DNA from: a virus
IMG/VR virus record: IMGVR_UViG_3300038701_002726
Location: 1 to 29,354 of that record
DNA: 29,354 nucleotides
Strand: one strand, 5' to 3'
The position numbers were made by a program, and so were the translations under genes. This document shows, piece after piece, positions 958-23,615 of this stretch; the stretch's first letter is position 1; each line of letters opens with the position of its first letter. Below the pieces are notes generated by a model. The model searched no databases, was not told the DNA's origin, and saw only the letters and a list, made by a program, of their open reading frames with translations.

Positions 958-1575
958 TTGACCGTCCTTCAGTCTGATAGCGCTGCTGATATTATTTCCC
1001 GTGCCATGGCGTGGGCGGAGCATAAGGCGCGTTTTACCAGTCTGGAGGACGGCAGCATCGATGCCCGCGAGGCGCGGATTGCCTATGATGCGCGGCGTCG
1101 GAATGTGCTGGAGATCATGGACTGGAATTTTGCGCGGCACCGATTTGCCCCCGGTGCGGTTCTGGTTGACACCCCTACCCCGGCAGGCATGCCCTATGCC
1201 TACAGCGTGCCGCCCTCCTGTTTGCGGGTGCGTGATGTGCTGGCGGGCGATGCCAGTCTGACGTGGCGGCGCGAGGCAAACATTTACTGCAACGCTGCTG
1301 ATGGCGTTCAGGTCGTTTATACGATCGATGAGGGCAACCCGGCGCTGTTCATGCCCAGTTTCACGCTGGCGCTGGAATATCTTTTGGCGGCGCAGTTCGC
1401 GATGGTTTATGCCCGGTCGGTCAATCGGTCCAACCAGATGCTTGATAATTTTCGCCGTGCTGTCATCGAGGCGGATCAGATGGAAGGCGTCGAGCAGAGC
1501 AATGACAGCGCCTATGCGCCCGGTGCTTTGGATATGGCGCTGATGTCCTTTGATTTTGCAAAGCCCATCCGATGA
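958..1575 (+). CDS. Tail tubular protein A (T7 gp11-like head-to-tail adaptor)
   Basis: A 205-residue product resembling podoviral tail tubular protein A, the adaptor ring beneath the portal. The helical N-terminus contains R-R-R-N-V-L-E-I-M-D-W-N-F-A-R (about residues 45-59), matching the family's 'aR..vL....WnfA' region. A Y-S-V-P-P-S-C-L-R-V segment (about 82-91) matches the '.Y.lP.dclrv' strand. The C-terminal half is helical and ends near the Y-A-P-G-A-L motif. The start is TTG 958 with a purine-rich AAGGCGGA element upstream; the next in-frame ATG would remove the conserved N-terminal helix. The gene follows the 155-residue head protein by 13 nt and its end overlaps the tail tubular B start by 4 nt. 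Length and gene order are typical of the family. Confidence 0.8.
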   Translation: MTVLQSDSAADIISRAMAWAEHKARFTSLEDGSIDAREARIAYDARRRNVLEIMDWNFARHRFAPGAVLVDTPTPAGMPYAYSVPPSCLRVRDVLAGDASLTWRREANIYCNAADGVQVVYTIDEGNPALFMPSFTLALEYLLAAQFAMVYARSVNRSNQMLDNFRRAVIEADQMEGVEQSNDSAYAPGALDMALMSFDFAKPIR

Positions 1576-4001
1576 CAAGAGTTTCGCCTCCGTCCACGTC
1601 TGCTGCGTCCGGTGAATTATCGTCGTTGATGTATGCGCGCAGCGATTATGCGCGGTTTCAGAATGGGCTGCGGCGGTGCCGGGGGTTCATGACATTGCCT
1701 GAGGGCGGGTTCACGCGCCTGCCGGGCACGAAATACCTTGGCGATACAGATCGAAATTTCCCGGCGCGGCTGATGCGGTTTGCGTTCAAGGATGAAGACG
1801 CGGTTTTGCTGGAATGGACGGATCAGCTGCTGCGGTTCTGGCGCAATGGGTCCCTTGTTCTTGAGGCGGGTGGTGTTGAGCCTTACACGTTGCAGACGCC
1901 TTATAGCTTTGCGCAGGCGCAGCGGCTGCAGTCGCTGTTGTCGTCAGATCGCATTTACCTGACTGAGGGTGAAATTGCGCCGCATCGATTGTCCCGGTTT
2001 GCCCTGGACAACTGGACGATTGAGCCGACGCCGTTTGCAAACGGTCCCTTTGCCCCGGTAAACATCAACCGAGCCAAGGAAATCACGGTATCGGACGTGG
2101 CGGGCAATATCGCCGTCACAACCAATTTCGACCTATTCGACAGCCGGTACATTGGCGTCCTGTTTCAGCTGAGCGAGGTCAACACAACGCGCACCCCGGC
2201 ATGGTCTGCCGATATTTCGACGTCTGTGGGTGATCAGTTTTACAACAGCGGGAACGTGTATCGCGTCGCCGGTTTCGATGTGAATAACGGCGTGACAGGC
2301 GGCGATGCACCAACCGCGTCGATTGTCGGCGGTGCCGTGACCAGCATCGGGCCGGTGCAATGGCATGCGTTCGCATCGGATAATGCGGGCGGATATCCTG
2401 ACTGGATCGCGGGCGAAACTGTCAGGATTGGCGATCGACGCTGGACCGGGGAGTTTGTGTTTGAGGTTGTCGGTTTTGCGGCCAGTGGCAAAAACACAGG
2501 TGTGAACCCGCCGGTGCATATCAGCGGGTTCTGGCTCGGTGAAAAGGGCGGCCCGGTTTATGAGTATCTGAGCGACGGTTCCGGGATCATTCAGATCACG
2601 CAGATATCCGGCGCGCGCAGTGCGTCGGCGGATGTCATTCGGCAGCTGCCTGCGGGGCTGGAAAACGCCGGAACATATCGCTGGGCGGAGCAGGCATGGT
2701 CGGCGGTCAAGGGTTTTCCCCGCGCGATCGGGGCCTATAAGCAGCGCCACATTTACGGGGGCACCCCAACAGAGCCGCGCACAATCTGGCACAGCGTGAT
2801 TGGCGGCACGGTCGATTTTTCCGCGCTTGGCGGCGATGATGAGGGCTTTTCCTACATTCTGGACAGTGATCAGCGCGACAACGGCGAAATCACGTACATT
2901 GTTCAGGCCGGTGGCGTTTTGCATATCGGCACGACAGCCGGGGAGTTTGTCGGCTCTTCGACCGATGCGGATCGCGTCTATGCCGAAGAAACGGCCACTT
3001 ATGACAGTGATACGTCGATCGGCAGTCGCAGCGTCGCGCCGGTGATCGTCAACGGCAAGGTCGTGTTTCTGGCCAAAAGCGCGCGCAAGCTGATCACGCT
3101 GCTTTTGGGGCCCGAAGGCAAGTATGAGGATGAGCATCTGACGCAGATCGCGCGGCACATTCTGGCCCCAGGCGCGGTCAAGCTGGTGTTTCAGGCGGAG
3201 CCGGTGCCGTGCATCTGGGCGGTTTTGTCAAACGGTGATCTGGTCGGTTGCACCTATATCCTCAAGCAAAAGGTGCTGGGGTTTCATCGCCACGAGGTGG
3301 GCGGCGGCGCGGTTGTTGATGTCGAGGTCATGCCGGGCGATGACGGGTCAAGCGAAGTTCTGGAGCTGGTTGTGCGTCGCACAATCAATGGTCAGGTGCG
3401 CCATTTCCGTGAGCAGATGCAGCCGCCGTTTGTCGATCTGGATGGTGATGCGCCGGACATCGAGGACGCCTGGCATTTGTTCGCAGGCGTCAAATACAAG
3501 GGACCTGCAACAGATGAGATTTCCGGGCTGGATCATCTTGAGGGTGAGGTGGTGGCAGCCTGGACGGAATACGGGGCGTTTACCGGGCTGAGCGTTGCAG
3601 GTGGCCGGGTGTCGTTGCCGCAGGCGGTCACCTGGGCAATCGTCGGGATTGACGGTTCAGACGGTGAGGAAGTCGACACGCTGGATATGCGCGTGGGCAC
3701 GCCGGATGGTGGCGATGAGGGTCGCAACAAATCGCACCGTGCGTCGGGTATTCACGTGCATCGATCGGCGGGTGGCACGTTCAGCGTTGTGCAGGTCGAG
3801 GATGGCGTCGAGATCGCCAGCAGGCCGGAGGACATCTTGCCGGTTGGCTTTGCGGATCGTGTCATTCTGCGCAGCGGCGTCTTTGATCTGGCGGGCCACA
3901 AGGGCTGGGCCAAGCAATCGTTTTTTCGGTTCAAGCCGCAACCCGGTGCGCCGCTGACCATTTTGGCCAGAACGCCCACAATGATGGTGAGTGATGACTG
4001 A
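1572..4001 (+). CDS. Tail tubular protein B (T7 gp12-like tail nozzle)
   Basis: This 809-residue, beta-rich protein matches T7 gp12 (794 residues) in length and position, directly after the gp11-like gene with a 4-nt ATGA overlap. Gp12-type proteins form the hexameric nozzle of the short tail. The N-terminus holds Y-A-R-S-D-Y-A-R-F-Q-N-G-L-R-R-C-R-G-F (about 18-36) followed by L-P-G-T-K-Y, the usual 'YaR.DlakY..gl....Nf...p.Ggv..RpGt.yv' opening of this family. Further along come Q-R-H-I-Y-G-G-T-P-T-E-P-R-T-I-W-H-S (about 390) and a region near 470-500 with S-I-G-S-R-S-V-A-P-V, both typical of nozzle proteins. There is no signal peptide or transmembrane segment. Its stop codon overlaps the next start by one base (TGATG). 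Confidence 0.85.
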   Translation: MTRVSPPSTSAASGELSSLMYARSDYARFQNGLRRCRGFMTLPEGGFTRLPGTKYLGDTDRNFPARLMRFAFKDEDAVLLEWTDQLLRFWRNGSLVLEAGGVEPYTLQTPYSFAQAQRLQSLLSSDRIYLTEGEIAPHRLSRFALDNWTIEPTPFANGPFAPVNINRAKEITVSDVAGNIAVTTNFDLFDSRYIGVLFQLSEVNTTRTPAWSADISTSVGDQFYNSGNVYRVAGFDVNNGVTGGDAPTASIVGGAVTSIGPVQWHAFASDNAGGYPDWIAGETVRIGDRRWTGEFVFEVVGFAASGKNTGVNPPVHISGFWLGEKGGPVYEYLSDGSGIIQITQISGARSASADVIRQLPAGLENAGTYRWAEQAWSAVKGFPRAIGAYKQRHIYGGTPTEPRTIWHSVIGGTVDFSALGGDDEGFSYILDSDQRDNGEITYIVQAGGVLHIGTTAGEFVGSSTDADRVYAEETATYDSDTSIGSRSVAPVIVNGKVVFLAKSARKLITLLLGPEGKYEDEHLTQIARHILAPGAVKLVFQAEPVPCIWAVLSNGDLVGCTYILKQKVLGFHRHEVGGGAVVDVEVMPGDDGSSEVLELVVRRTINGQVRHFREQMQPPFVDLDGDAPDIEDAWHLFAGVKYKGPATDEISGLDHLEGEVVAAWTEYGAFTGLSVAGGRVSLPQAVTWAIVGIDGSDGEEVDTLDMRVGTPDGGDEGRNKSHRASGIHVHRSAGGTFSVVQVEDGVEIASRPEDILPVGFADRVILRSGVFDLAGHKGWAKQSFFRFKPQPGAPLTILARTPTMMVSDD

Positions 4002-4447
4002 TGTGTGATATTGGAGCCGCCGCCCTTGCTGTCTCGACCCTTGGAGGGCTGTACGCTGCCGGTGAGCAGTCGGCCATCGGTGCGCAGAATTCCCAGCTGG
4101 CGCGCGCTGAAGCCGCGCAGCAAGAGGAAATCGGGCGCTACGAAGAACAGAAAACGCGCAGCCGCATGGATCGCCTGATCAAACAACAGCGTGGCCAGTT
4201 TGCCGCGCGCGGGGTGCGTCTGGACAGCGCGAGTGCGCAGCGGCTTGGGGCTGAGGCATCGCTGGAGCGCAGCAAAGAGGCTGAGGCCATTCGTTTCAAC
4301 ACCGGATCGCAGGTGGATGCGTCCAATGCTGAGGCCGATCTGGCGGAGCGTCGCGGGCGGCTGGGCTTTATCACCGGTGTCACAAATACCGGCGCGCGGA
4401 CGGTGAGTTCGTCGCTCAAGCTCTGGCCGGAATTGGCGGGGGGCTGA
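4001..4447 (+). CDS. Internal virion protein (T7 gp14-like)
   Basis: A 148-residue, Ala/Gln/Arg-rich protein with a short hydrophobic N-terminal stretch (A-A-A-L-A-V-S-T-L-G-G-L-Y-A-A) followed by a long helical, coiled-coil-prone region (about 25-125). Small proteins of this form, placed between the nozzle and two large internal proteins, correspond to T7 gp14, which inserts into the outer membrane during DNA ejection. The Q-Q-R-G-Q-F-A-A-R-G-V segment (about 65-75) recurs in this family. It starts on the last base of the nozzle stop codon and ends 3 nt before the next gene, so translation is probably coupled. The exact role is inferred from position and shape. Confidence 0.7.
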   Translation: MCDIGAAALAVSTLGGLYAAGEQSAIGAQNSQLARAEAAQQEEIGRYEEQKTRSRMDRLIKQQRGQFAARGVRLDSASAQRLGAEASLERSKEAEAIRFNTGSQVDASNAEADLAERRGRLGFITGVTNTGARTVSSSLKLWPELAGG

Positions 4448-4450
4448 GCG

Positions 4451-6475
4451 ATGGCGCTGATCATACCGCAGAGCAACACGCCGTTTCAGCAGGTGCGCAA
4501 GCCGCGCCAGTCGTTTGATGAACCCAGCATCGGCGAAGCCGTGGCCGGTCTGGCGGATGTCGCGGTGTCGTACGGGATCGATCAGAACGAGCATGCCCGC
4601 GCGATGGTCATGCAGGAGGCGCGCGTCACCGCGGCGGAGCGTCTGGGCGCGTTGCGCGATAAGTACGAGCAGGACCCAAACCTTGATGGGCTGAGCGAGA
4701 GGTTCGGCGCGGATGTCGAAGCGCTGAAGGGGGAATTGAAGGGCAGTCTGCCGAAGGGTCGCCAGCAGGATCAGTTTGACCTGACGTTCAGGCAGATGGC
4801 AAATCCGCAGGTGCGCGCCATCGGCAACCGTCAATATGCGCTGCAGCGCGATGCGTCCCTTGCGCAGCTCAACGCATCCTTGCGGGTGTACCAGCGCGAG
4901 GCGGCGTCTGCCCCGGATACGCAGTCCCGTGATGCGGTGTTGGCGACAGCGGCAGAAGACATCGGTGCGGCGAAAGCGGCGGGCTGGATTTCTGCAACCG
5001 ATGCAGAGAGTATTTTGGCCGGTACGCTGGACGGTGCCGTCAGCAACGCCGCGATCGAAGCGCTGCAGAATGATCCGCAGGAATTCCTTGATCGTCGCGA
5101 TGACGGGGAATTCAGCGCCATGGACCCCGCGCGTCTGACGGCGCTGACGGGGCGGGCGAAATCTGCACTTGCCGCAGAGCAGGTGCGTCTGCAGAAGGCG
5201 GCGCAGGTGCAGGCGAAGGAGGTTGCCGCGCGCCTGAAGGCAGATATTGAAAACGCTGTGGACGTCATCGAGGGCGGGTTGCGGTTTGACGATTTGCCGG
5301 GCCTGATGGAACGTGCCGCCGGGACGGAACACGAGGCCACACTGCGCGCAACGCTGGCCGCTGCGGAAACAGAAGGCAATTTTGCGATTATCGATCCGCT
5401 CGATCAGCAGGCGGTGATTGCGCAGCTTGAAAATACATTGACCGGAGATCCGGAGGATATTGCACGATTGAACCGTCTGCGGTCGATCAATGAGAAAACC
5501 CGCAACAGTCTGGAAAATGATCAGCTGTCACATGTCAGCAAGCTCGGCATTGTTGCGGTGCAGCCGGTTGCGATCGATGATCCGGAGAGCATGGCCGCGC
5601 GGATCGCCACGGCGGAGGCGGTGGCGTCTGACATCAAAACGGATGCGCCGCAGCTGCGGTATTTTACAAATCCGGAGCGCGATGCCCTGCAGGCGGAAAT
5701 TCAGGCCGGTGGCCCCGATGAGCAATTGGCAATCGTCACCAGCATCGTTGAAAACGCCGGAAACCGCGCGGGGGCGATCCTGCAGGAAGTCGGCGCGCAG
5801 GATCCCTTGTTTCATCTGTCTGGCCAGCTGGTGCTGCAATCGGGTGATATCGCGGCGGCGCGCACGATGCTGAGCGGTCGCCAGCTGACACGTGACAAGC
5901 AGGGTGCAAAAGCGCCTGCATCTGCGCGCACGGCCCTGAGGGCGGAATTTGCCAGTGCCTTTCCGCCCGCAGATCAGGCGCGGGTGGCTGGGTTGCTGGA
6001 GGCGGCGGATGCGCATTTTGCGGCATCTGGCCTTGCTGTTGACCCGGATGCGGGCGAAGACGTTTTGCGCGGGGCATACCTCAAATCCATCCAGGCGGTT
6101 TCGGGTCAGGTTGTGCGTCGCGGCGTGGCGTATGGCGGCATTCAGGAGGTCAATGGCCAGCAGACTTTGTTGCCGTCCACCTTGTCGGCGGAGATCGTTG
6201 AGAAGGCCATCGCGGACGCAACGCCAGAGACCTGGGCGGCGGCGTCTGTAACGGGTGGCGCACCAATGCTTGGAGGTCGCCCCCTGCCCGATCCTGCATC
6301 ACGCGCCTGGCGGCGTGCGGGCCTTGACAGCGCGCGGGTGCTTTCGATGGGTGGCGGGCGTTATGTTGTCGGGATCGAGCGATCAGACGGCACCATGCGC
6401 TGGCTGACAGACAGCAGGTCGGCCAATGGTCTGTTTTATGTCGATCTTGAGCAGTTGCGCGGGGCGCGGCAATGA
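4451..6475 (+). CDS. Internal virion / ejection protein (T7 gp15-like)
   Basis: A 674-residue, mostly helical, acidic, Ala-rich protein without a signal sequence or obvious membrane segment. It occupies the place of T7 gp15 (747 residues), which forms the periplasmic tube of the ejectosome. The N-terminus (S-N-T-P-F-Q-Q-V-R-K-P-R) is followed by long heptad-like helices, consistent with an ejected tube protein. No enzymatic motif was seen. It lies 3 nt after the gp14-like gene and overlaps the next gene by 4 nt (ATGA), indicating one transcription unit. The assignment rests on order, size and composition; sequence similarity to T7 itself would be low. Confidence 0.65.
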   Translation: MALIIPQSNTPFQQVRKPRQSFDEPSIGEAVAGLADVAVSYGIDQNEHARAMVMQEARVTAAERLGALRDKYEQDPNLDGLSERFGADVEALKGELKGSLPKGRQQDQFDLTFRQMANPQVRAIGNRQYALQRDASLAQLNASLRVYQREAASAPDTQSRDAVLATAAEDIGAAKAAGWISATDAESILAGTLDGAVSNAAIEALQNDPQEFLDRRDDGEFSAMDPARLTALTGRAKSALAAEQVRLQKAAQVQAKEVAARLKADIENAVDVIEGGLRFDDLPGLMERAAGTEHEATLRATLAAAETEGNFAIIDPLDQQAVIAQLENTLTGDPEDIARLNRLRSINEKTRNSLENDQLSHVSKLGIVAVQPVAIDDPESMAARIATAEAVASDIKTDAPQLRYFTNPERDALQAEIQAGGPDEQLAIVTSIVENAGNRAGAILQEVGAQDPLFHLSGQLVLQSGDIAAARTMLSGRQLTRDKQGAKAPASARTALRAEFASAFPPADQARVAGLLEAADAHFAASGLAVDPDAGEDVLRGAYLKSIQAVSGQVVRRGVAYGGIQEVNGQQTLLPSTLSAEIVEKAIADATPETWAAASVTGGAPMLGGRPLPDPASRAWRRAGLDSARVLSMGGGRYVVGIERSDGTMRWLTDSRSANGLFYVDLEQLRGARQ

Positions 6476-8763
6476 CGTTTCTGGATGGGGCATCACCGAT
6501 TGCGGCGGCGGGCCTGGAACCGGCATCTGAGGGGCCGGAAACCACGACGGGTGAGCTGGTCGGCATTGGGTTTGAGAAAGAGGCGATTGATCGGAATTAC
6601 TGGGCGGCGCGCCAGAAGCGCACAGGGCACCGGCAGTTTACCGTGATCGGCGATATCTCGGAAGCGCTTTATGGCGATCGCAACGCATGGGTTGGTGATA
6701 CGCAGGGCGGGGCAAATCCTCCCGTGATCGAAGACCAGATTGACACGCTGTTTCGGGATCTCGAAGCGCGTCGGGGCGCAGAGCCGGGCCAGCTGGCCAA
6801 TTTCCCGAATTCGCGCGCCGCGCTTGAGGATTTTGCAAAAGACCAGGTGCGATCGGAAATGCAGGAAGAGCGGATCGAGCTGGAAGAGCGGAGCCAAAAC
6901 AGGTCCAGTCCCAGCCTGACGGGTGGTGTCGCGGAATTTGTGGGCATGGCAGGCGCGGCGGTGTCAGACATCGAGGGGCTGGCCCTGTTGCCTTTTGGCG
7001 CCGGTAGCGGGTCGCTGGCCCGCACGATGCTGGTTGAGGGTGCCCTTGGCGCCGGGTCGGAGGCGCTGGCCATCCCGGCCTATAATGCGCAGGCGGAGTT
7101 TCTGGAACGCGATGCCCCGGATGTTTTGCAGCTGCTGTTGTTTGGTGCGACCTTTGGGGCGGCGCTGCCGCTGGCCGGGCGTGGTATCGGTGAGGCGGGC
7201 AAGCTGGGCGTCAGGGGTGCTGAGGTTGCGAACGAAAAGCTGCTGGCGGCGGTGCGGCGCACGGGCGGGTCCGACAAGGAACGTGGCGCGGCGGCGCAGC
7301 TGGCGCGGGATGAGGCGGCATTGCAGAGCGCGCCAGCGGGTGTCGATCCGGATGAGCATGCGGCACGTATCGATGCGGCGGAGGTTGCGCTTGAAAACGG
7401 CGATCCGGTTGTTGTGCGTCCGGAAGATGTTGACCTGAACGCACCGGCGGACTGGCCGCGCATTCAAGCCGGTATTTTTGCCGGTGAAAGCGGCGGTGAC
7501 TACGATGCTCTGTTTGGGTTTTCAAACCGTGAGGGCGGGCCGTTTTCAAATGTGCGCGTCACTGAAATGACTGTGGATCAGGCCATCGCGTTTTCCAACC
7601 CACGCGGTGCCTATGGCCAGTGGGTTAAGGGTCGTGTCGGGCGCGTCGCCACGCCGATGGGGGCCTATCAGGTTGTCGGCACCACGTTGCGCGCCGCCAA
7701 GGAAGGTTTGGGGCTGTCAGGCAATGAGGTCATGACGGCCAAGCTGCAGGATCGCATCGGCATCTGGATCCTTGAGAAGCAAGGCACCGGCGCATGGGAG
7801 GGGTATCGCGGCCCGCGCACGCCCGGCACCGGCACTGCCGCTGATACCCCTGCCCCACGGTTTCAGGGGTATGGCGTGGCACCTGATGGCCGCGTGCTGG
7901 CGGATTTGTCAGGCGGGCGCATCGAGGCTGACGAAAGCCGGTTTCGCATCGAGGTTGGCGAGATCGAGATCGATCAGCCGTGGACGCAAGCGGCGTTTGA
8001 TTTTGATGATCGGTCCCCGCCGCCGGATGGCCCTGCATCTGCTGCCCCCGCGCCGATTGGGCCGGTGTCTATCGATGCGGTGGCAGCGCGGGAAATCCAA
8101 GAGGAAATGGCGGCACGCGGCGTTGATCTGCCGGACGATCCGCCCGCGCGCCCTGCCCGTGCTGAGGCCGACGAAGTGGAAGACGCCGCGCGCGATGAAC
8201 CGGATGCTGCGCGTCCGGCAGACGCACCTGAAGATGTCGTTCGTGATGAGGCCGAACCCAATGCTGCTGCTGCCGATGCCCCGTCCAGCTGGATTGTTGT
8301 TGATCGGGCCACGTCAAAGCCCGCGCTGGAGACAAGCAACCCAAAGGTGGTCGATGCCATTAACCGGGACAAATACGCCGCCGTTCCGGCCCGTGCCTAT
8401 CTTGAGGATTACAATCAGCGCGTCAAAGCGGCGGGGGGCGAGACACCTGCGCCGGGCCGATGGCTTGGCCCTGAGGCTGTGACGCCGTCAAACCAGCCGG
8501 ACGTTCCAGTCAGTGCCGTGCAGTCGGATATGTTTGATGACCCGGCGACCAGCGCGGGTGCTGTTGCGCAGGCCGATCTGATCGATGCGGATCTGCGCGC
8601 GCGTCTGGCGGAGGATCCTGCCAACGACATCGAGGTCCCGGTGGATGCTGGTGAAGATGCTGCGCGCATCAAGGTTTCGGAGATCCTGGCCGATCTGGAT
8701 GACGAAGCCGAATTCTTAGAACAACTCAATGTTTGTATGCCGAAAGGAGTTTCCAATGGCTGA
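6472..8763 (+). CDS. Virion-associated muramidase-domain ejection protein
   Basis: A 763-residue protein with a lysozyme-like domain at about residues 325-445. It contains F-A-G-E-S-G-G-D-Y-D-A-L-F-G with a probable catalytic Glu339, and downstream T-P-M-G-A-Y-Q-V-V-G-T-T, the substrate-cleft 'G.YQ' element of lysozyme-fold enzymes. It would locally cut peptidoglycan to let the ejection tube cross the wall, as the transglycosylase domain of T7 gp16 does. The N-terminal ~320 residues are helical, with a hydrophobic patch near 155-200 that may contact membrane. The region after about 500 is acidic, Ala/Pro/Asp-rich and probably disordered, and a compact stretch follows it. Unlike T7 gp16, the lytic domain is on its own chain and the other large ejection protein is a separate gene at 9109. 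It overlaps its neighbours by 4 and 8 nt. Confidence 0.7.
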   Translation: MTFLDGASPIAAAGLEPASEGPETTTGELVGIGFEKEAIDRNYWAARQKRTGHRQFTVIGDISEALYGDRNAWVGDTQGGANPPVIEDQIDTLFRDLEARRGAEPGQLANFPNSRAALEDFAKDQVRSEMQEERIELEERSQNRSSPSLTGGVAEFVGMAGAAVSDIEGLALLPFGAGSGSLARTMLVEGALGAGSEALAIPAYNAQAEFLERDAPDVLQLLLFGATFGAALPLAGRGIGEAGKLGVRGAEVANEKLLAAVRRTGGSDKERGAAAQLARDEAALQSAPAGVDPDEHAARIDAAEVALENGDPVVVRPEDVDLNAPADWPRIQAGIFAGESGGDYDALFGFSNREGGPFSNVRVTEMTVDQAIAFSNPRGAYGQWVKGRVGRVATPMGAYQVVGTTLRAAKEGLGLSGNEVMTAKLQDRIGIWILEKQGTGAWEGYRGPRTPGTGTAADTPAPRFQGYGVAPDGRVLADLSGGRIEADESRFRIEVGEIEIDQPWTQAAFDFDDRSPPPDGPASAAPAPIGPVSIDAVAAREIQEEMAARGVDLPDDPPARPARAEADEVEDAARDEPDAARPADAPEDVVRDEAEPNAAAADAPSSWIVVDRATSKPALETSNPKVVDAINRDKYAAVPARAYLEDYNQRVKAAGGETPAPGRWLGPEAVTPSNQPDVPVSAVQSDMFDDPATSAGAVAQADLIDADLRARLAEDPANDIEVPVDAGEDAARIKVSEILADLDDEAEFLEQLNVCMPKGVSNG

Positions 8764-9112
8764 TACTGAAATGACACCGCAACAAAAGGCTGCGGCCACA
8801 AAGAAGGCAAAGGCGGAAAAGAAAGCCGCAGACGCCCAGAGCGCCCCGTCAGGCGGGGTTCAGGGGGCGGCGGGCACCCTGCCCCTCAGTGAGCTGCTGC
8901 GGGGCTATCACGCGCGGCGTTTGTCCTGGGCGTTTGGTCGCGTGATCTATGTCGGCCAGAAAGGCGGGCGCGGCGGTGCAAAACCGATGCTGATGATGAC
9001 CGGGAGCCGGTCGGGCGATCTGCCGTGGGTGCGCACCGATGACGCGGACGTGCTGGCAGAGGACTGGGTTGTGGTTGACCCCGCTGCTGATGTGTCGGTG
9101 GCGTCTGAATGA
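8756..9112 (+). CDS. DUF2829/Tad2-like protein, candidate nucleotide sponge
   Basis: A 118-residue protein starting at ATG 8756, chosen because AAAGGAG (8743-8749) sits 6 nt upstream; the in-frame ATG at 8729 has none. Residues 1-41 are a Lys/Ala-rich, probably disordered tail. Residues 42-109 follow the DUF2829 (Tad2) pattern: L-P-L-S-E-L-L-R at the start, a central W58, then L-P-W-V-R-T-D-D-A-D-V-L-A-E-D-W-V-V-V (89-107), close to the family's 'PW..s..DllAeDW.vv' ending. Some DUF2829 proteins block Thoeris defence by sequestering cyclic ADP-ribose isomers; whether this one binds a ligand is unknown. It overlaps the muramidase gene by 8 nt and the next gene by 4 nt, so it is made with the virion proteins. 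Alternatively it is a structural protein that reuses this fold. Confidence 0.6.
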   Translation: MADTEMTPQQKAAATKKAKAEKKAADAQSAPSGGVQGAAGTLPLSELLRGYHARRLSWAFGRVIYVGQKGGRGGAKPMLMMTGSRSGDLPWVRTDDADVLAEDWVVVDPAADVSVASE

Positions 9113-11622
9113 GCCTTTATGATTGCATAGAGCGTGCAATCAACGCCGGTGAAATGCCCAAGGCCCGCGCCCGTGCTGCGCAGGATCTGTTGCAGGAGCG
9201 CCTGAAAGCGCATGCGCATCTGGGTCCCGGCGCAGAAGCGGCTGCGGCGCAGGATGTCTGGATACATCTGCGCCGCAGTGCGCAGGAGCGCAAGCGCGGC
9301 CATCTGCTGCAGGTTCAGGCGAACATCAAGATCATCGAAAATGTCACCAACCACGTTGACAGTGATGGCAATGCGAACGCGGCCAACGCGCCCCGGCAAT
9401 TGATCGAGCATGGGCAGTCGGCAAAATTCCAGAATGTTTCGGCAAGAGCTGATGCGCTTGAGGGTTTCTACATGAAGTCGATCGGCGGTTTCATCGAAAA
9501 GCACAAGCGCAACATCTTTGGGGGTGTGCGCAGCAAGGCGCTGTTGGGTGATGTCGTGAGAGAGCTGTACGGGGATGCATCCGGGAGCGCTGCTGCCAAG
9601 CAGATGGCAGATGCCATTCGCGATGCGTTCGAGCTGGCGCGCACCGATTTCAACGCTGCCGGTGGGTCGATCGGCAAGATCGACAATTATGGCCTGCCGC
9701 ATTCGTGGGATACGGCGCTGACGAAAAAGGCCACCTTCGACGATTGGGCAGGCGAAATGGACAACCGCCTGGACTGGGACCGCATCATCGATCGCGATAC
9801 CAGTCAGCCGTTTTCATCGAGCACGCCTGAGGCGCGGGCGCGGTTTTTGCGCGATGTTTACGAGGGGATCACTACGGACGGCTGGTCGCAGCGTGAACCT
9901 GCCGGCATGCAGATGGGGCGGTCGGTTGCGAATTCGCGATCGGATCACCGGGTTTTGCACTTCAAGTCTGCTGACGACTGGATGGCGGTGAACGACAAAT
10001 TCGGGCGGTCTGACCCCTTTTCTGCCGTTGTGGCGCATCTGAAATCCATGGCGCGTGACACGGCATCGATGCAGGTGCTTGGACCCAATCCGCGCGCCGG
10101 GCTTGAGCTGGCAATCCAGACAGCGGAAAAGCTGGCGCGGGATCGCCCGTGGGTACAAAACAAAAAAGGCTCAAGTCTCTTTTTCACAACGCCTGCTGAT
10201 GAGGCGCGCGGCAAGGGGCGGCATGCGCGGCGCATGTATGATCTTTATACCGGGGCGGCCAACAAGGTCGAAAGCGACGTGGTGGCCGGTGCGTTTGCCG
10301 GGCTGCGTCATTTCCTGATCGCGTCGCAGCTGGCCGGTGCGATGCTGTCAGCGGTGTCGGATGTTGGATTTCAAGCGATGGCCGCAAAGCATGTCGGCAT
10401 CAAATGGAACAAGGTGGTTGGCCGTCAGCTGAAGGCGATCGCGTCATCGAAAGATCGTGCGTTGATGGCGCGCATGGGGATCATCGCGGAAAGCGCGGCG
10501 AACACAGGTGTCGCCCAGGCGCGTTTGATGGGGGATGATTATGTCGGCCCGATGATGGAACGCCTGAGCGAGTTCACCATGCGCGCGTCGGGCCTGACAG
10601 CCTGGACGGATATCGGGCGCGGTGCGTTTCGGCTGGAGTTCTATGGATTTCTTGCGGAGAACGCCGGGCAGTCGCTGGATGCCCTGCCCAAGCCGCTGCG
10701 CGATTTGATGGTTGAGCGCGGCTTTTCGGCGGAGGATTGGGACATCATTCGCGCGACGGACTTGGCGCGCAGTGAGGCAGAGCCTGAGGCGACGTTCCTT
10801 GTGCCGGGGGATATTCGGTATCGCGATGATCTGGACGGTGCGCAGGCACTCGATCTGTCCCTGAGGCTTGAGGCGATGGTGCGCGAGCAGATGGAATTTG
10901 CCGTGCCGTCTGCCAGCCTGCGGGGCCGTGCGATGTTTGATTTTGGGGGCAATGGCACGCTGGCCGGTGAGTTGTTGAAATCCGGTCTGATGTACAAATC
11001 GTTTGCGTTTTCGATGCTGTTCAACCAGCTGGGCCGGGTGTTTTATCATCGTCTGAACGGATCGCGGATCAGTCAGGCCGTGATGTTTGCCACGATCACC
11101 ACGGCAGGTGGTGCCTTGGGTATTCAGCTCAAGGAGTTGGCCAAGGGCAATGACCCACGCCCGATGGATAGTAAAGAGTTTTTAATGGCCGCTGTGTTGC
11201 AGGGTGGTGGGCTTGGTATTTTTGGCGATTTCGCATCGAGCACGCAGAACCGTTTTGGCGGTGGCCTTGCCAGCACGTTGGCCGGTCCTGCGGCGGGTTT
11301 CCTGAATGACACCGGCGGGTTGATCGGTCGCGGTGTCGCTGCGGTGACTGGCGGTCAAAAAGAGCAGGATCAATTTGGCCGCGCGGCCACCAAATATCTC
11401 AACCGATATTCTGGGCCAACAAACCTTTGGTACATCAATCAGGTGCTTGACCGGGCGCTGTGGGACAACCTGCAGGAGCTGACGGACGGCGAGGCGCAAA
11501 AGGCGTTTCGCCGCGAGGAACGGCGTCGGGTCAAGGACTTTGGCAACCCTTCGTACTGGCCGCGTGGTGAGCCGGTGCCGGAGCGGTTGCCCAACATTCT
11601 GAACGCGATAGAGGGCAGTTAA
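9109..11622 (+). CDS. Large internal virion / ejection protein (T7 gp16 C-terminal-like)
   Basis: An 837-residue, largely helical protein. It lacks a lysozyme motif; that activity is on the product of the gene at 6472. Hydrophobic stretches, for example around residues 400-425 (F-L-I-A-S-Q-L-A-G-A-M-L-S-A-V) and near 645-670 (M-F-A-T-I-T-T-A-G-G-A-L-G-I-Q), suggest membrane contact during ejection. The C-terminal end (N-R-Y-S-G-P-T-N-L-W-Y-I-N-Q-V-L-D-R) resembles the tail of large podoviral internal proteins that begin with a head-like helical bundle and end in this motif. Together with the 148-, 674- and 763-residue proteins it would form the ejection machine. It overlaps the Tad2-like gene by 4 nt, and the tail fibre gene begins directly after its stop. 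Confidence 0.65.
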   Translation: MSLYDCIERAINAGEMPKARARAAQDLLQERLKAHAHLGPGAEAAAAQDVWIHLRRSAQERKRGHLLQVQANIKIIENVTNHVDSDGNANAANAPRQLIEHGQSAKFQNVSARADALEGFYMKSIGGFIEKHKRNIFGGVRSKALLGDVVRELYGDASGSAAAKQMADAIRDAFELARTDFNAAGGSIGKIDNYGLPHSWDTALTKKATFDDWAGEMDNRLDWDRIIDRDTSQPFSSSTPEARARFLRDVYEGITTDGWSQREPAGMQMGRSVANSRSDHRVLHFKSADDWMAVNDKFGRSDPFSAVVAHLKSMARDTASMQVLGPNPRAGLELAIQTAEKLARDRPWVQNKKGSSLFFTTPADEARGKGRHARRMYDLYTGAANKVESDVVAGAFAGLRHFLIASQLAGAMLSAVSDVGFQAMAAKHVGIKWNKVVGRQLKAIASSKDRALMARMGIIAESAANTGVAQARLMGDDYVGPMMERLSEFTMRASGLTAWTDIGRGAFRLEFYGFLAENAGQSLDALPKPLRDLMVERGFSAEDWDIIRATDLARSEAEPEATFLVPGDIRYRDDLDGAQALDLSLRLEAMVREQMEFAVPSASLRGRAMFDFGGNGTLAGELLKSGLMYKSFAFSMLFNQLGRVFYHRLNGSRISQAVMFATITTAGGALGIQLKELAKGNDPRPMDSKEFLMAAVLQGGGLGIFGDFASSTQNRFGGGLASTLAGPAAGFLNDTGGLIGRGVAAVTGGQKEQDQFGRAATKYLNRYSGPTNLWYINQVLDRALWDNLQELTDGEAQKAFRREERRRVKDFGNPSYWPRGEPVPERLPNILNAIEGS

Positions 11623-15762: not shown

Positions 15763-18700
15763 ATGTCAGTTGGGGTTGGTGCTGGTGTTGGGGCCGGTCT
15801 ATCGGCGTTCCGCCCTAGTGGGCGGTCGGCGTTCATTGCGTCTGCGTTCACCTATGAGCGGGGCGCGCCGGATGTTCTGACGGCCCGCATATCGCGCGCT
15901 TACAAGACATCGACCGGTGACACGCTCACCTTCGTTTTTCAGCGGGACGGGGTGCAGGTCGCCAGTGTCACCAGCTCGCAGTACGCATCGAACGATGCAC
16001 CGGGCGCGCGATCAGGGTCGGGTCAGTCGTTGTCTGCGCTGACGGGTGCGCTGACGGTCGGCAATCTGTACATGATTACTTATGAAGTGTCAGTCAACGA
16101 CAGCGGCGCGACGATCTTTCCCTTCGGCCTCAGCCCGTTTGAGGATCTGACTGGCGCTGATTTTCCGTCGACAGTCGGGTGGCACACGGTCTTTGGCGTG
16201 GCGAAAAACACCAACACGCAAGCGGTGGTTTACACCACCGGCGATATTACCATTCCGCATTTCAACGTCCAGGACGCGCAGGCGTCGATCGACGTGCCGG
16301 CCAGCTGGGTCGGTGATCTGGTCAGCTATCAGATCACGTCAGGAAATGAGACAGCGGCCAAGCGGGCCTTTACCGTGCCGTCCGCTGGCACCGTCTTTGT
16401 GCACCCCACGAACGGCAGCGACGATTTCGGCGTTGGGTCGCAACTGTCACCTTACAAATCGATGTCCGCAGCGTTTGCGGCCATCGGTGATGGCGTCGGC
16501 GGCACGATCATCAAGCGACCCGGATTTTACGACCCGTACGAGGTTCCGATCGAAGGCGCGGACGGCAACCCGTTGCGGATCACGCACATGCCCGGTGAAA
16601 GGAACCTTGCGATCGTTCTGGGCGATGTTGACCAGCATGTGGCGCGTGGTGGCGCGGGCGTGGCACAGAACAACGCGACACGTGACGGGATCCGCATAGA
16701 CGGGAAAAGCTACGTCGAGATTGACGGCATCGCGGTCCACAAAGTTTGGCGCAATGGCATTTTCGTCAAGGGCGCTGGCGCAGACACCGTGAGCGGCAAT
16801 ATCAAGATCACAAACTGCGTCACTGATGATACCGGGCTTTCCGGCATTTATATCTGCGGTGACGTGGCAGGATCCCCGGTGCCTGCAAATGACGCATTCC
16901 GCACGCGCTATGTCTACGTCGAGGACAATGACGTCACCAAAACCAACACGGTCAATGACTGGAATTATGACCAGATCAATTCCGAAGGCGAGCGGGGCGG
17001 CGTAGGTGAGGCGATCACTGTCGCGAACAGCGTGCAGTACATTTATGTGCGTCGCAACCACGTGCACAACTCGCGACAGTACGGCATCGACTTCAAGAAC
17101 CACGTGGTCGATGGGGAGATCACGCACAACCGGATCGATCAGGTCACGCGCTATGCCATCTACCTCGATTCCGGTGAGCTCGACGTGCGGCGCATTCTTG
17201 TGGCCAATAACCAGATGAGCAACTGCCGGGCGGGCCTTGTTCTGGCTCGTGAGGAAGACGGGAACGACAGCGGCGATGATCTGGCGATGGAAGACATCGA
17301 CATCGTGAACAACGTCACGTGGAACATGTCGCGCGTCGGCATGCACTTCCAGCGCCACCCGACCAAGGACCAGCAGAACATCGGCTATTTCCGCCGGATC
17401 AGGGCGCGGTTCAATGCGTTCTTCAACACGAACACGGACGGGATTTACCGCGATATTAACATTGACGATATTGCGTCGTTTGGGAACAACATCGCGGGCG
17501 ATCCGATTGTTTCCGGCATCGAGTTGATCGGCAACGTGGCGTGGAACCCTGATGGCTCAATGCGCATGGCGATTGATGTGGCGGGCGACAGTCGGTTCAC
17601 GGTGGCGCAAAACTACAATGTGCAGGACGGGACGTTTACCGGCACTGACCCGCTATATGTTGCCCCGACAGCAGATGAGCCTGATTTCAGCTTGGGCGAC
17701 GGCTCTGGGGCCAAGGAAATCGTCACCACGGCATCCTATATCACAGCGCCGTTTGACAAATTCCCCGATGGCAGCGCGCGCGTTACGCCGGGGCCTGCGG
17801 GCGCGTTTGATGTATTTAAGCCTGCGCTGCGTATCTCCTCAAATGTCCTGACGCACAACGATTTCACGCCAGCAGTCCCGTTTCTGAACAGGTTCACTTT
17901 GGCGCGCTATTATTTCATGGGTACTGGTGGCGCAGACGACATATATTGCGGTGATGCTGCGCTCGACGGCCTGTCAGATTCCGAGGGCTGGATACACTCA
18001 GCGCCCACAGGTCGCACAAGTGCGCGCGTGTTCTTCGCGTGGAGTGGCTTTGAACCGGATTATCATCAAGTCTCGTATGATATGACTTGGGACGGTGCAG
18101 AACAATTTACCCTGTTTGGTGTAGACAACCAGACTAGTGTCGGAACCAACCATATTCGGTTTACGCCACGTATGGAGGGTTGGGGCTTTAATATCACGTC
18201 GTTCCCCGGCGCATCTGGTGACTACACGCGCAATGTAAAAATCTATCGCACTGTCGATGCGTCTCGGATCGCTGCGGGCGAAATGTTCAACCCGGATTAT
18301 GTCGCTCTGTTTGAGGGGCTGACGGAAAAACGCTGGATGGGCTGGATGGGCGAAAACAAGGATCAGGTTGTTGCCCTGCCTAAGTTTCCCTTCGCAAACT
18401 ACGGCAGTTCTGGGCAAGATATACGGCCTACAATCCCGCCCGAAATAATTGCCCGTTTTTCGAATGAGGTAGGGATCACGCCTTGGCTCAACTTCCATTT
18501 TCGTATGACTGACGCGGAAATAAGCACATGGTTGGAGCGCTTCGTAGCGGTTCTGGACACCGACATGGTTGTTAAAATGGCACCGTCGAATGAAACATGG
18601 AACTGGGGCTTCCCTGTACATGATTATTATATTGACGCCGCTCGTGCGCTTTGGAGCAATGTGGGGCCGACGGATTTCGCGCAAGACAGCTATCATGGAT

Positions 18701-21288
18701 ACAAAACAGTCAAGTTGTTGGAAATCGCAGAAGATCATTTGCCGCGAAACCGCATTAAACTGGTACTGGAAACGCAATCTAGCAGTCAGGCAGTAACAGA
18801 AAGGCGGTTGGAAGCGCAGGCATGGGAGGACAGCGGCGACACCGAATTTGTACGCCCCGGCGATGTGGTTGATGAGATTGCAGCGACCAGCTATTTCGGT
18901 TCGAAAATTTTGTCAGAAGAACCCAACAGGTCGGCTTTGCTAGACGCCATTGACACCCGCACAAAAGCAGACGCTTTTGACTGGCTAACCTCTTTCATTC
19001 TTGGTGATACTTCATGGGGCAGTGGCGAATGGGACGCAACGATTGAATCTTTTGAGGAAAACAATGTTATCGCCGTGCGGGAGGGTGTGCCGCTCACTCT
19101 CTATGAGGGCGGTCAGCATGTTTATCATAGCTTCAACGTAAAAGACATGACGCAGGCGCAGATTGATATTCTTGCCCCCTTCCTGAAAGACTTCGTTAAC
19201 AGCGATCAGATGGGTGGTCTTTATCAGATGCTAAGTGACGAGTGGCAGAAGGTTTCGCCGTCTGAACCAATGATGCAGTTTGGCATGATTTCAATGCCGG
19301 GTGACTTTGGTTTTTGGGGTCTTCTGGCTGATTATGAGCAGCCTCTTTCCCCGCGCGCCGAATATATTCTGGGGGTCGCACGCGGCGAGTCCTTTACCGA
19401 CTACAGGCCATCGCTTGAACCTCTGACGCCCCGACACCTTGCAGTTGATGTAACAAGCGTGTCAGCGACCACAGACGGTGTTTCCATCACTTATGAGGGT
19501 AGTCCGATCACCAATGCGGCAGTCGATGGCGGTACAGCTACCGGCGCTGTGATGGTGGGGAGCGAGTTGCGAAATACAGAAGTGAATGGCTTTGCGGGTC
19601 AAACTGGCAACATCGTTCAAGTGTCGTCCGACCAGGGTTACTTCATCCTTACCTTGACCGCCGCAGACGCGGTGACAGTGTTTGGCGCGACAGTGACAAT
19701 CCCGGCGCAAAACTCCGCATTGTCTGGCTTCCCCGTGCCGATAGATCTTTCCGAAATGGATAATGCGGCATGGACGCGATTGCGCGGTGATGGCGGCAAC
19801 CTCAGAGCAAAAAGCACCGATCTGGCCACTGAGTATCCAATTGATGTGAGTTTTGTCGATAAGGCAAACAAAGCGGGCCGGGCGTGGGTACGCACAGACT
19901 TGTCAGGCAGCGCGGCCACAACCTTTGTGCTTGATGTTGCTGACCCAAGCGTCACGGCGGTGGCGTCCGACGCCGCGACGGGCCGTGAGGCTGTCTGGAC
20001 TGGCTATGCCGCTGCGGTAAGTTTGCCAGAGAAAATCAACAGAGCGGACGGTGTTGCGCTGGTAGAAGATAGACCGATAACCAGCGGCGCAGAAATTCGA
20101 AATTATACACAATCGGCAGCACGGCAAGGCATCGCTTATGGGTCAAGTGGTGAACGGTTTGCCTTTGATACAGATACGATCACGAAATATGCGTCAGATT
20201 GGACTACGCAAACGGCGATAAACACCACGCCGCTTGCCAGCCAGCAAGCCGCCTTGAATCATGTTGGTGATGGGTGCGTGGTCGGCACAGAATTGTTTGC
20301 GGCAAATTCGAAATATGTGGCTGACGGAACGCCCACAAGCGAGGTGGCCGTGTATGAAACATCAAATCTGACATTTAAGCGGTCATATAATATCAGCAGC
20401 ACCCCCGGCATGACCGCTCTGTCCTCGATGTGTTACAATGCCGATGACAGCGTGTTTTACCTCTCGTGCTTTGAGACGAATGACGAAATCTTTGTTTTCA
20501 ACAGCAGCTTTGTGCAGCAAGCAAGCATCACGCTTTCCGATAATATCGACAATATCCAAGGCATTACCTATGCGCAGGACCACATATTTGTGTCGCATAA
20601 CACGACCGGCACTGACTTAATCACGAAAGTCGCGAAAGACGGGACCGTACAAGAAACAGCGGCAACTCAGAATGGTTATGGGCAAGGCATAGATATTACT
20701 GAGGAAGGTTATTTGGTAGGCGTCGGGTCGGGCAAAATAATCGAGTGGGATATTTCTGCCGGGTCCATGGCAAGTGGCACAGTCGTCTATACAATAGACG
20801 ATATTGGCACTCACGCCGGTTGGACCCTATCGGCCACCAGCCTTAACCGCTTGGCGGCGAGTAATCAGCAGATTGCGGGCTTTAACACTGTGGCAAATAC
20901 AAGTACGCGAGGCGGTTTCCATGTCAGATCAAACGGCAACTATGAGTCTTGGGCATCCGGTGAAAGCTGGATTGCTCCTTCTCCAGCAACCACGCGTGAC
21001 GCGGTAAACAAGCGGCACATGGCGCTGACGTTCAACGGCACGACTGGCCGTGATCTGTTTTTGGATGGTGATGCGTATGCAACCGATGGCCCAATAGGCA
21101 GCACGTTCACGACTTCTGCGCTCAATCTGGTAGTCGGCGGGAACGGTGCCTCTGCGACCTCTGAATTGTTTCAGGGTTTTGTTTTTGACGTGTTATTCCA
21201 TGAAACTGTTCGCAGTGACGAATGGATTAAGGCAGAAGCAGACGCGCTGCTTGATCCAGCCACATTTGCGGTGCTCACGTCCAGATGA
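15763..21288 (+). CDS. Giant spike: beta-helix plus glycosidase-like and LamG-like domains
   Basis: An 1841-residue receptor-binding spike. Residues ~1-205 are beta-rich and probably attach it to the particle. Residues ~210-690 are a right-handed parallel beta-helix, opening V-F-V-H-P-T-N-G-S-D-D-F-G with many short N-rich turns such as I-K-I-T-N-C-V and V-R-R-N-H-V-H-N. Residues ~690-830 look like a carbohydrate-binding-type sandwich. Residues ~830-1220 look like a clan GH-A TIM barrel: P-S-N943-E944-T-W-N-W-G-F supplies an acid/base Asn-Glu pair and L-Y-E1115-G-G-Q-H a nucleophile. Residues ~1450-1665 have repeated short beta strands like a propeller, and ~1680-1841 resemble a LamG/concanavalin-like lectin fold. 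The role would be binding and cutting surface polysaccharide. From about 17,830 onward the DNA looks less GC-rich than the 5' part, suggesting domain exchange. Confidence 0.75.
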   Translation: MSVGVGAGVGAGLSAFRPSGRSAFIASAFTYERGAPDVLTARISRAYKTSTGDTLTFVFQRDGVQVASVTSSQYASNDAPGARSGSGQSLSALTGALTVGNLYMITYEVSVNDSGATIFPFGLSPFEDLTGADFPSTVGWHTVFGVAKNTNTQAVVYTTGDITIPHFNVQDAQASIDVPASWVGDLVSYQITSGNETAAKRAFTVPSAGTVFVHPTNGSDDFGVGSQLSPYKSMSAAFAAIGDGVGGTIIKRPGFYDPYEVPIEGADGNPLRITHMPGERNLAIVLGDVDQHVARGGAGVAQNNATRDGIRIDGKSYVEIDGIAVHKVWRNGIFVKGAGADTVSGNIKITNCVTDDTGLSGIYICGDVAGSPVPANDAFRTRYVYVEDNDVTKTNTVNDWNYDQINSEGERGGVGEAITVANSVQYIYVRRNHVHNSRQYGIDFKNHVVDGEITHNRIDQVTRYAIYLDSGELDVRRILVANNQMSNCRAGLVLAREEDGNDSGDDLAMEDIDIVNNVTWNMSRVGMHFQRHPTKDQQNIGYFRRIRARFNAFFNTNTDGIYRDINIDDIASFGNNIAGDPIVSGIELIGNVAWNPDGSMRMAIDVAGDSRFTVAQNYNVQDGTFTGTDPLYVAPTADEPDFSLGDGSGAKEIVTTASYITAPFDKFPDGSARVTPGPAGAFDVFKPALRISSNVLTHNDFTPAVPFLNRFTLARYYFMGTGGADDIYCGDAALDGLSDSEGWIHSAPTGRTSARVFFAWSGFEPDYHQVSYDMTWDGAEQFTLFGVDNQTSVGTNHIRFTPRMEGWGFNITSFPGASGDYTRNVKIYRTVDASRIAAGEMFNPDYVALFEGLTEKRWMGWMGENKDQVVALPKFPFANYGSSGQDIRPTIPPEIIARFSNEVGITPWLNFHFRMTDAEISTWLERFVAVLDTDMVVKMAPSNETWNWGFPVHDYYIDAARALWSNVGPTDFAQDSYHGYKTVKLLEIAEDHLPRNRIKLVLETQSSSQAVTERRLEAQAWEDSGDTEFVRPGDVVDEIAATSYFGSKILSEEPNRSALLDAIDTRTKADAFDWLTSFILGDTSWGSGEWDATIESFEENNVIAVREGVPLTLYEGGQHVYHSFNVKDMTQAQIDILAPFLKDFVNSDQMGGLYQMLSDEWQKVSPSEPMMQFGMISMPGDFGFWGLLADYEQPLSPRAEYILGVARGESFTDYRPSLEPLTPRHLAVDVTSVSATTDGVSITYEGSPITNAAVDGGTATGAVMVGSELRNTEVNGFAGQTGNIVQVSSDQGYFILTLTAADAVTVFGATVTIPAQNSALSGFPVPIDLSEMDNAAWTRLRGDGGNLRAKSTDLATEYPIDVSFVDKANKAGRAWVRTDLSGSAATTFVLDVADPSVTAVASDAATGREAVWTGYAAAVSLPEKINRADGVALVEDRPITSGAEIRNYTQSAARQGIAYGSSGERFAFDTDTITKYASDWTTQTAINTTPLASQQAALNHVGDGCVVGTELFAANSKYVADGTPTSEVAVYETSNLTFKRSYNISSTPGMTALSSMCYNADDSVFYLSCFETNDEIFVFNSSFVQQASITLSDNIDNIQGITYAQDHIFVSHNTTGTDLITKVAKDGTVQETAATQNGYGQGIDITEEGYLVGVGSGKIIEWDISAGSMASGTVVYTIDDIGTHAGWTLSATSLNRLAASNQQIAGFNTVANTSTRGGFHVRSNGNYESWASGESWIAPSPATTRDAVNKRHMALTFNGTTGRDLFLDGDAYATDGPIGSTFTTSALNLVVGGNGASATSELFQGFVFDVLFHETVRSDEWIKAEADALLDPATFAVLTSR

Positions 21289-21499: not shown

Positions 21500-22672
21500 T
21501 CAGGCGGATCGGCGGGGGTGTTCTATTGCCAGGATGGCTTTGGCGGCGCGGGCGTCGGATGCGGGCATGTAGGTTTGGCGCAGGTTGGCGTCTGTCCCGG
21601 ATGTGTTGCCCAGGGCGTCATCGACGTCATCGCTGACCACGCCTGCGTGGCGGGAGTTGTTGCTGAAGGACCGGCGGAAGTCGCGAAACTGGATGTCGTA
21701 GACGGAGGGGCAGGTTTCGGCGGCTTTTTCGCGGATCCGGGCGAATTCCTTGGGAAAGCTCGTGTCGTTGAAAGGGCGCGCGTCGTGGTCGCGGGTTACA
21801 AGCGGGCTCTGGGGCGCTGTGGCGGCGCGCAGGGCGTCGCTGAGCAACGGCAGGACGTCGTCGTGCACCACAAGGTAGCTGAGGCGCTGTTTGGTGCTGT
21901 CCTTTGATCTGACGATGCGCCAGTGCAGGCGGTCCTGGGGGCCGGTTCCGTCATCGAGGTCAACGGTGCGCATGATGAAGCTGGCGGCGCGGGCGTTGAA
22001 GACGTCGGTGACGCGCCCGCCCATGAACATGGCCAAGTGCATCGCAAGGCGCATGTTTGTCAATTCGAGATCCTGCGCGGCGGCATCTAGGGCATCAAAT
22101 TCTGCCCAGTCGATTGTGCGGTTGCGCGATTTCGGTGTGATCATCCGCATGCGCACGACGGGGTTTGTCGGGATGATGCCTTTGAGTTCAGCGTAGGACA
22201 GCAGGATGCTGAGCATGCGCACCAGGCGTTTGGATACCCAGACGCCGTGAGCGGCATAAAGCTCTTCGTACCAGCTGTAGATTTTGGGCTTGGTGAGTTT
22301 GCGCACGTCGGTGCCCTGCCAGCGGTCGACAATGCGGATGATGTCTTTTTCGTATTCAAACCGGGTCTTTGGTTTCTTGGTGAGAAACTGTGGACTTTTG
22401 AGATAGGCGGCGCGCAGTGCCTCGATCGAGTTGGGGGCGGTGCGGGCGCGGTACGTTTCTGTCTTTGGGGCTGTGCCAGATTTGAGGTTCAGCTCCTTTG
22501 CCTTGCGCACGGATGCGGTTGGCTGGTCTGCGCGCAGCTCGACGTTCTTTGCGCCCATCAAGCGCTGTGTTTTGCTGGGCTCCCACCAGACGCGCCAGCC
22601 GTCGCGCGCCCGGTAGCGTTGGCGCAGGCCGGGCACCTTCTGTTTGATCGGTTTCGGGGGTTGGGTGCTCAT
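21500..22672 (-). CDS. int: Tyrosine integrase with atypical catalytic residues
   Basis: A 390-residue site-specific recombinase, presumably acting at the tRNA-Asn site. Residues ~80-175 form a SAM-like core-binding domain (A-P-N-S-I-E-A-L-R-A-A-Y). The catalytic domain shows R220 in M-G-G-R-V-T-D-V-F, a possible Lys at 257 or 261, a box II of R330-D-F-R333-R, and the nucleophile Y368 in L-R-Q-T-Y-M. Two positions differ from the usual set: the His of H-x-x-R is Arg330, and the His/Trp of 'LGH' is Asn356 (L-G-N-T-S-G). The N-terminus is basic and may bind arm sites. The start overlaps the upstream gene's stop (ATGA). It is the last gene of the leftward operon driven from about 24,350. Its distance from attP, about 6.3 kb, is unusual. 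Confidence 0.85.
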   Translation of the reverse strand: MSTQPPKPIKQKVPGLRQRYRARDGWRVWWEPSKTQRLMGAKNVELRADQPTASVRKAKELNLKSGTAPKTETYRARTAPNSIEALRAAYLKSPQFLTKKPKTRFEYEKDIIRIVDRWQGTDVRKLTKPKIYSWYEELYAAHGVWVSKRLVRMLSILLSYAELKGIIPTNPVVRMRMITPKSRNRTIDWAEFDALDAAAQDLELTNMRLAMHLAMFMGGRVTDVFNARAASFIMRTVDLDDGTGPQDRLHWRIVRSKDSTKQRLSYLVVHDDVLPLLSDALRAATAPQSPLVTRDHDARPFNDTSFPKEFARIREKAAETCPSVYDIQFRDFRRSFSNNSRHAGVVSDDVDDALGNTSGTDANLRQTYMPASDARAAKAILAIEHPRRSA

Positions 22673-23394: not shown

Positions 23395-23615
23395 CACCCT
23401 GCCCTCCTGATTTCGCTGCGGTTGGGGCATTGGTTGGCGATCCATTCCTCGATCTTGTCGCGCCGCCATGTCATGGGCTTCAGGCGATGCGGGGCTGGCA
23501 GGGGGAAATCGTATTGTTCCTGCAGGCGGTCGAGGGACTGGCGGAAGGTGTGCGCCGACATTTCGAGTTTTGCCGCCACTTCGCCGGTGGTGATCCAGTT
23601 TTTCTGCGCGCTCAT
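23394..23615 (-). CDS. AlpA-like small HTH protein, possible excisionase
   Basis: A 73-residue protein from ATG 23615 with GGAGG upstream. The N-terminus W-I-T-T-G-E-V-A-A-K-L-E-M-S-A-H-T-F-R-Q (7-26) is a winged-helix MerR/AlpA-type recognition motif, and the C-terminal half includes M-T-W-R-R-D-K-I-E-E-W-I, typical of AlpA/excisionase proteins. Such proteins bend att DNA or regulate integrase. Being two genes upstream of the integrase in the same operon fits an excision directionality factor. It overlaps its upstream neighbour by 4 nt. A general regulator of the operon is the alternative. Confidence 0.65.
   Translation of the reverse strand: MSAQKNWITTGEVAAKLEMSAHTFRQSLDRLQEQYDFPLPAPHRLKPMTWRRDKIEEWIANQCPNRSEIRRAG

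Follow-up and report, generated by a model that had tools for sequence, protein, structure and literature searches.

Tad2 is a homotetrameric protein that binds gcADPR, cADPR, HisADPR or cyclic dinucleotides. Its ligand is lined by the loops β1-β2, β3-β4 and β4-α3 together with neighbouring elements, and some Tad2 proteins carry a long insertion with a second, cyclic-dinucleotide site (PMC12043709). Acb4, a sponge for cyclic dinucleotides, represents the family PF13876 (PMC11722364). The Thoeris systems of Staphylococcus and Streptococcus are activated by newly made major capsid protein (PMC12578639). Here, we describe a small gene, referred to below as the slot gene, that lies between two ejection-protein genes of a temperate podophage and encodes a likely Tad2-fold protein. 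It is named a Tad2-fold protein and is not filed as a functional Tad2, because its ligand specificity appears to be changed or lost.

The window, that is, the whole stretch of DNA analysed, is a 29,354-base IMG/VR virus record and constitutes the right part of the phage genome, the nearest relatives of which are Rhodobacterales prophages. It contains the C-terminal end of the major head protein, the genes of tail tubular proteins A (958-1575, + strand, phrog_394) and B (1572-4001, +, phrog_376), a 148-aa gp14-type internal virion protein gene (4001..4447, +, phrog_418 internal virion protein at 2.8e-12) and two large proteins. A 674-aa gene in the same operon as the slot gene (4451..6475, +), conserved at 61% in a prophage of a Rhodobacteraceae MAG (L006) and at 46% in an IMG/VR contig (L052), probably encodes a further ejection protein, an assignment made by position only. 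After the slot gene come a pilot-type protein gene and tail fibre genes, and the opposite strand carries an integrase and a repressor. An 1841-aa protein (15763-21288), the sole match of which is to the beta-helix family PF13229, is probably a tail spike or fibre, and a protein with DUF2786 and DUF7168 (22669-23676, - strand) is encoded next to the integrase gene.

The genes on either side of the slot support the statement, made in an initial annotation of this DNA, that it lies between two ejection-protein genes. The upstream gene (6472..8763, +) encodes a 763-aa protein that matches phrog_14527 (1.6e-14) and, weakly, the endolysin phrog_90; its L006 homologue contains a Phage_lysozyme2 domain (PF18013, 78.5 bits). 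This protein aligns with its relatives mainly at the two ends, at 43-48% identity, and its middle varies in length (proteins of 763, 981 and up to 929 aa). The downstream gene (9109..11622, +) encodes the 837-aa ejection or pilot protein, which matches phrog_684 (virion structural protein, E 4.7e-153) and has homologues in 112 phage records.

The slot gene itself (8756..9112, +) encodes 118 aa. An alternative in-frame ATG lies upstream at 8729 and would give a 127-aa product, but the start at 8756 is preferred because a Shine-Dalgarno-like AAAGGAG (8743..8749, +), located within the upstream gene close to its 3' end, stands just before it and because the homologues in L006 and L052 both start at the matching codon after a similar upstream sequence that includes this element. 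The start of the gene overlaps the upstream gene (6472-8763) by 8 nt, and at its end it shares 4 nt with the start of the next gene (ATG at 9109), the same overlaps that the initial annotation had given. The translation of the frame likewise places W58, P90-W91 and L100-A-E-D-W104 at the positions named there. The Lys/Ala-rich N-terminal tail that it had described as an extra element is real: residues 1-41 (8756..8878, +) include 12 Ala, 6 Lys/Arg and 4 Asp/Glu, with a helix predicted at residues 8-28. The tail is about 103 aa long in L052 and poorer in Lys in L006, so that within this three-member family its presence is conserved and its sequence is not.

The Tad2-like domain occupies about residues 42-108. 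Residues 46-107 match Pfam PF11195 (Tad2-like) with 25.7 bits (E = 1.7e-5), just above the curated gathering cut-off of 25 bits, which bears out the original domain claim; the two homologues, which were found independently, score 21.4 and 24.4 bits and both fall just under that cut-off. A phmmer search of the slot protein against the PDB returned nothing, and no NCBIfam model matched it. A structural model made from the three family members alone reached a pLDDT of 47 and was unusable. An AF2 model was then based on an alignment (A5) in which the family was joined by 38 canonical Tad2 sequences taken from viral contigs, and with this alignment the block-mean pLDDT of the domain was about 81-90. 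The structural comparison with Tad2 that the initial annotation had proposed gave a match, on a model whose alignment contained canonical Tad2: residues 39-108 superposed on SPO1 Tad2 (8smf_H) with a Z score of 8.8 and an rmsd of 2.6 Å over 69 residues. The ten best solved structures were, without exception, Tad2 or AcrIIA7 proteins (Z 7.8-8.8, rmsd 2.5-3.0 Å, 68-73 residues), and the next, unrelated row had a Z score of 3.3. Likeness to DNA- or RNA-binding folds (MBD2, mitoribosome, Z 2-3.3) in the same list was judged to be noise. In a profile-profile alignment, the small family matched canonical Tad2 over only 17 columns, at 84% probability. The slot protein thus likely has a Tad2 fold, a grade kept short of proof because the canonical Tad2 sequences in the alignment may steer the model.

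The loops that would form the ligand pocket have been rewritten. In the canonical Tad2 sequences compared, these loops carry the near-invariant motifs GWNGK.M and W..SQ.D. The position of the former reads SWAFGRVI in the window, SWANGITL in L006 and AWSPGFEL in L052, and that of the latter reads WVRTDDAD, YLETLKDSDD and WKPKAIDD, respectively; in each of the three proteins, other residues stand in for the near-invariant ones of GWNGK.M and for the SQ of W..SQ.D. The long β2-β3 insertion is absent from the slot protein. Core residues are retained (R55, W58, G61, D98, D103 and W104), and R54, R55, W58, G61, G70, R72, G73, G83, R85 and G87 are conserved within the small family. Judged from sequence conservation and from the published description of the loops (PMC12043709), the replaced loops and the missing insertion point to a changed or lost ligand specificity. 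Since the pocket motifs are lost, it cannot be taken for granted that cADPR isomers are bound, and with the loops replaced the ligand is not predictable from the sequence. Ligand binding may have been lost in the three family members; if a signal is bound, it probably differs from the one bound by SPO1 Tad2. The initial annotation had held that its reading would fall if there were no structural match to Tad2, or if relatives showed a conserved structural role with the pocket residues absent. This objection applies in part: the pocket-loop residues are indeed lost, whereas the predicted fold matches Tad2 and no structural role is conserved across relatives.

The same gene order in relatives, which the initial annotation had suggested looking for, was found twice. 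L006 has a homologue in the same slot (7657-8001, 46% identity, against 75% for the pilot protein), and L052 has another (9426-10004, 32% over the domain, against 63% for the pilot protein). Most flanking genes are 61-75% identical to L006 and 46-63% identical to L052. Between the window and L006, differences in the slot gene at the three codon positions are 0.40, 0.41 and 0.62. The pilot gene was found in 80 viral contigs, 77 of which show the junction; the slot gene is absent at 76 of these, the exception being L052. The flanking genes abut at 72 of the 77 junctions, with gaps of -4 to +32, and they abut as well in nine prophages found among 391 Rhodobacterales genomes. The remaining junctions hold the Tad2-like gene of L052, unrelated small genes in L054-L056 and a 115-nt gap in L071. 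Searches of the slot protein with tblastn against 50,697 phage records and in scans of the viral contigs found nothing. The three-member alignment revealed no further member above noise in 395 host-family genomes beyond the known MAG, and among viral contigs it recovered only L052 again and L145, the latter matched over the C-terminal motif alone. A second, canonical Tad2 is present neither in the window, which does not include the terL-portal region, nor in the L006 genome or the L052 record.

A conserved structural role is rejected on these counts, with the gene missing at 76 of 77 viral junctions and in nine prophages. The pattern of presence and absence between conserved flanks marks the slot gene as an insertion at an accepting junction and not as a core virion part; on gene order, it is a moron-type gene that this ejection-protein operon may have or lack. 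The small genes in L054 (9753-10004), L055 (9400-9962) and L056 (970-1351), some of them zinc-ribbon-like (FHCATCGR..CMGC), are candidates for counter-defence or accessory proteins, and the L054 gene has no Pfam match. With such genes in it, the slot is not exclusive to counter-defence genes, which counts against a counter-defence reading of the slot gene.

Sponge-family genes occupy late slots in other phages. In the Pectobacterium phages Momine and Koot, a canonical Tad2 (92.9 bits) lies between the genes of an internal virion lysozyme (phrog_2083) and an internal virion endolysin (phrog_342). The equivalent slot is filled by a PF13876 gene in Lelidair, Ekidair, Khlen, PP16 and relatives, and it is empty, with the two genes abutting, in PhiM1 and others; the flanks of Lelidair and Ekidair are about 95-96% identical over the aligned part. 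Slant encodes a protein identical to the PF13876 slot protein, a case known from the protein and not from the junction. The PF13876 slot genes of Lelidair, PP16, Khlen and relatives are annotated as hypothetical (L231:1717-1995, L242:2212-2490, L245:2209-2487 and L257:3995-4273). PF13876-like genes of some Vibrio phages (for example, L254:3998-4273) are annotated as 'ryanodine receptor', a label that recalls the RyR-domain counter-Thoeris proteins (PMC13232231).

In relatives of the window phage, canonical Tad2 occurs in 9 of 40 records and PF13876 in 5 of 40, never both. Tad2 adjoins terL in six of those nine, with portal sequence on its other side in three (within the stretch inspected), and in one record this terL-portal slot holds a PF13876 gene. 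The position next to terL is another late slot in which one sponge family can stand in for the other (L271 and L258-L264; six Tad2, one PF13876). The order terL-Tad2-portal is found in two of three prophages as well, and canonical Tad2 is commoner in genomes with this phage type (3/13 versus 3/378, one-sided Fisher p 5e-4). Jedunavirus IME346 has the order terL-Tad2-portal, Drulisvirus has the order capsid-Tad2-tail tubular A, and the Tad2 genes of SPO1, IME_EC2, AB4P2 and MW202475 are located elsewhere. These contexts were picked by hand and show recurrence, not a rate. The recurrence of sponge genes in late operons undercuts the premise of the initial annotation that Tad2 as a rule belongs among the early or accessory genes, given canonical genes at terL-portal, at capsid-tail tubular A and between internal virion genes. 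N4 gp49 (L135:3752-4234), a 160-aa protein with a Tad2-like C-terminal half (84 bits), is encoded next to the virion RNA polymerase gene. An extra N-terminal region appears in many such Tad2 genes, as the match of canonical Tad2 to phrog_1048 and phrog_872 is confined to their C-terminal part.

We consider the slot protein, on a slender balance of probability, to be a sponge-type counter-defence protein that is expressed late and has a diverged Tad2 fold with a rebuilt pocket. Translation of the gene would be coupled to that of its neighbours and take place late in infection, and an abundant, presumably oligomeric protein would be made alongside the capsid. It would sequester an immune signal derived from a nucleotide, in the TIR/Thoeris pathway or one related to it, and this would coincide with the firing of capsid-sensing systems. 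The host order does have ThsB-type TIR genes, which were found in 35 of the 391 genomes searched. Other fates of a Tad2-like domain must be weighed against this. The gene could be a decayed passenger, left neutral after a former Tad2 insertion, or its domain could serve an unrelated regulatory or nucleic-acid-binding role. The weak HMM scores (21-26 bits) and the lost motifs agree with such a history, which we nonetheless regard as quite improbable, because the frame, start signal and overlaps are maintained in three phages at 32-46% identity, the differences between the window and L006 concentrate at the third codon position, and the six core residues listed above are kept. It is unlikely, too, although less so, that the domain lost its ligand pocket and was recruited as a small internal or ejected virion protein that aids genome delivery or stabilises the ejection complex. 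Its position between ejection genes, the translational overlaps and the Ala/Lys-rich tail would suit such a part, as would the loss of the canonical pocket motifs alongside conservation of RR..W, G.RG and G[ST]R.G in the small family. Relatives that share its ejection genes, however, nearly all lack it in the slot, it has evolved faster than most of its neighbours, and the equivalent slot elsewhere holds sponge families.

The initial annotation had raised the idea of a sponge packaged in the particle. In this scheme, the protein would enter the particle along with the ejection proteins and reach the cell together with the DNA, so as to blunt immune signalling before new synthesis. The operon position and the extra tail speak for it, as does the recurrence of canonical Tad2 and Acb4-family genes between the ejection genes of an unrelated phage group, and there is a precedent in the injected anti-defence proteins Ip2 and Ip3 of T4 (PMC12373910). 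A simple late-expression reading, moreover, leaves the tail unexplained. On the other side, the Corkvirinae slot proteins are tailless, a stoichiometric sponge requires many copies, and sponge genes also stand at terL-portal and capsid-tail junctions, where position is more simply read as late expression. In the literature on Phimunavirus, we found no virion proteomics for the slot proteins. Since Thoeris responds to capsid protein in two genera, synthesis late in infection could be enough without packaging, and with sponge genes recurring in late operons, the location of the gene is weakened as evidence for packaging. That the slot protein, together with the canonical Tad2 and Acb4-family proteins of the Pectobacterium phages, is packaged with ejection proteins and delivered as a putative pre-made sponge is in our view very unlikely. 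It is testable in isolated phages, for example, Koot and Lelidair.

Two unrelated podophage groups thus have sponge-family genes, or a Tad2-fold relative, between their ejection genes, and a second late slot, at terL-portal, can hold a member of one or the other of these two sponge families. The pattern suggests a link between genes that counter immune signalling and the expression of virion genes. Such a link would be expected if the TIR and CBASS systems of the host respond to phage products made late. The pattern also provides a search rule for new counter-defence proteins, namely small genes at junctions within virion operons. The slot family, with its rebuilt pocket loops, is a candidate for a new ligand specificity.

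Among described proteins, the slot protein is closest to Tad2 (SPO1 gp34.65, ModTad2, HgmTad2/AcrIIA7 and SptTad2), which it resembles in its domain match and predicted fold, with 20-28% identity to the solved structures and the core positions L..G...R..W, G and D.LA.DW in common. The family departs from Tad2 in the replaced GWNGK.M and W..SQ.D, in lacking the long β2-β3 insertion and in an extra N-terminal tail of about 36-103 aa. With the Tad2 of Momine and Koot (Corkvirinae, Phimunavirus), it shares a type of slot, from a lysozyme-type gene to the last internal virion protein gene, that is polymorphic for presence and absence, whereas their proteins are canonical in sequence, tailless and from a different phage lineage. 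The PF13876/Acb4 genes of Lelidair, Ekidair, Khlen, Slant and PP16 are alike in being small genes of a known sponge family in an equivalent slot, but the family is unrelated, and the protein on which it was founded, SPO1 Acb4, has cyclic dinucleotides as its ligands, for example, 3'3'-cGAMP (PMC11722364). With the anti-restriction proteins Ip2 and Ip3, the likeness is in the idea of particle-borne counter-defence proteins; injection has been described for T4 (PMC12373910), whereas for the slot protein it is only a proposal.
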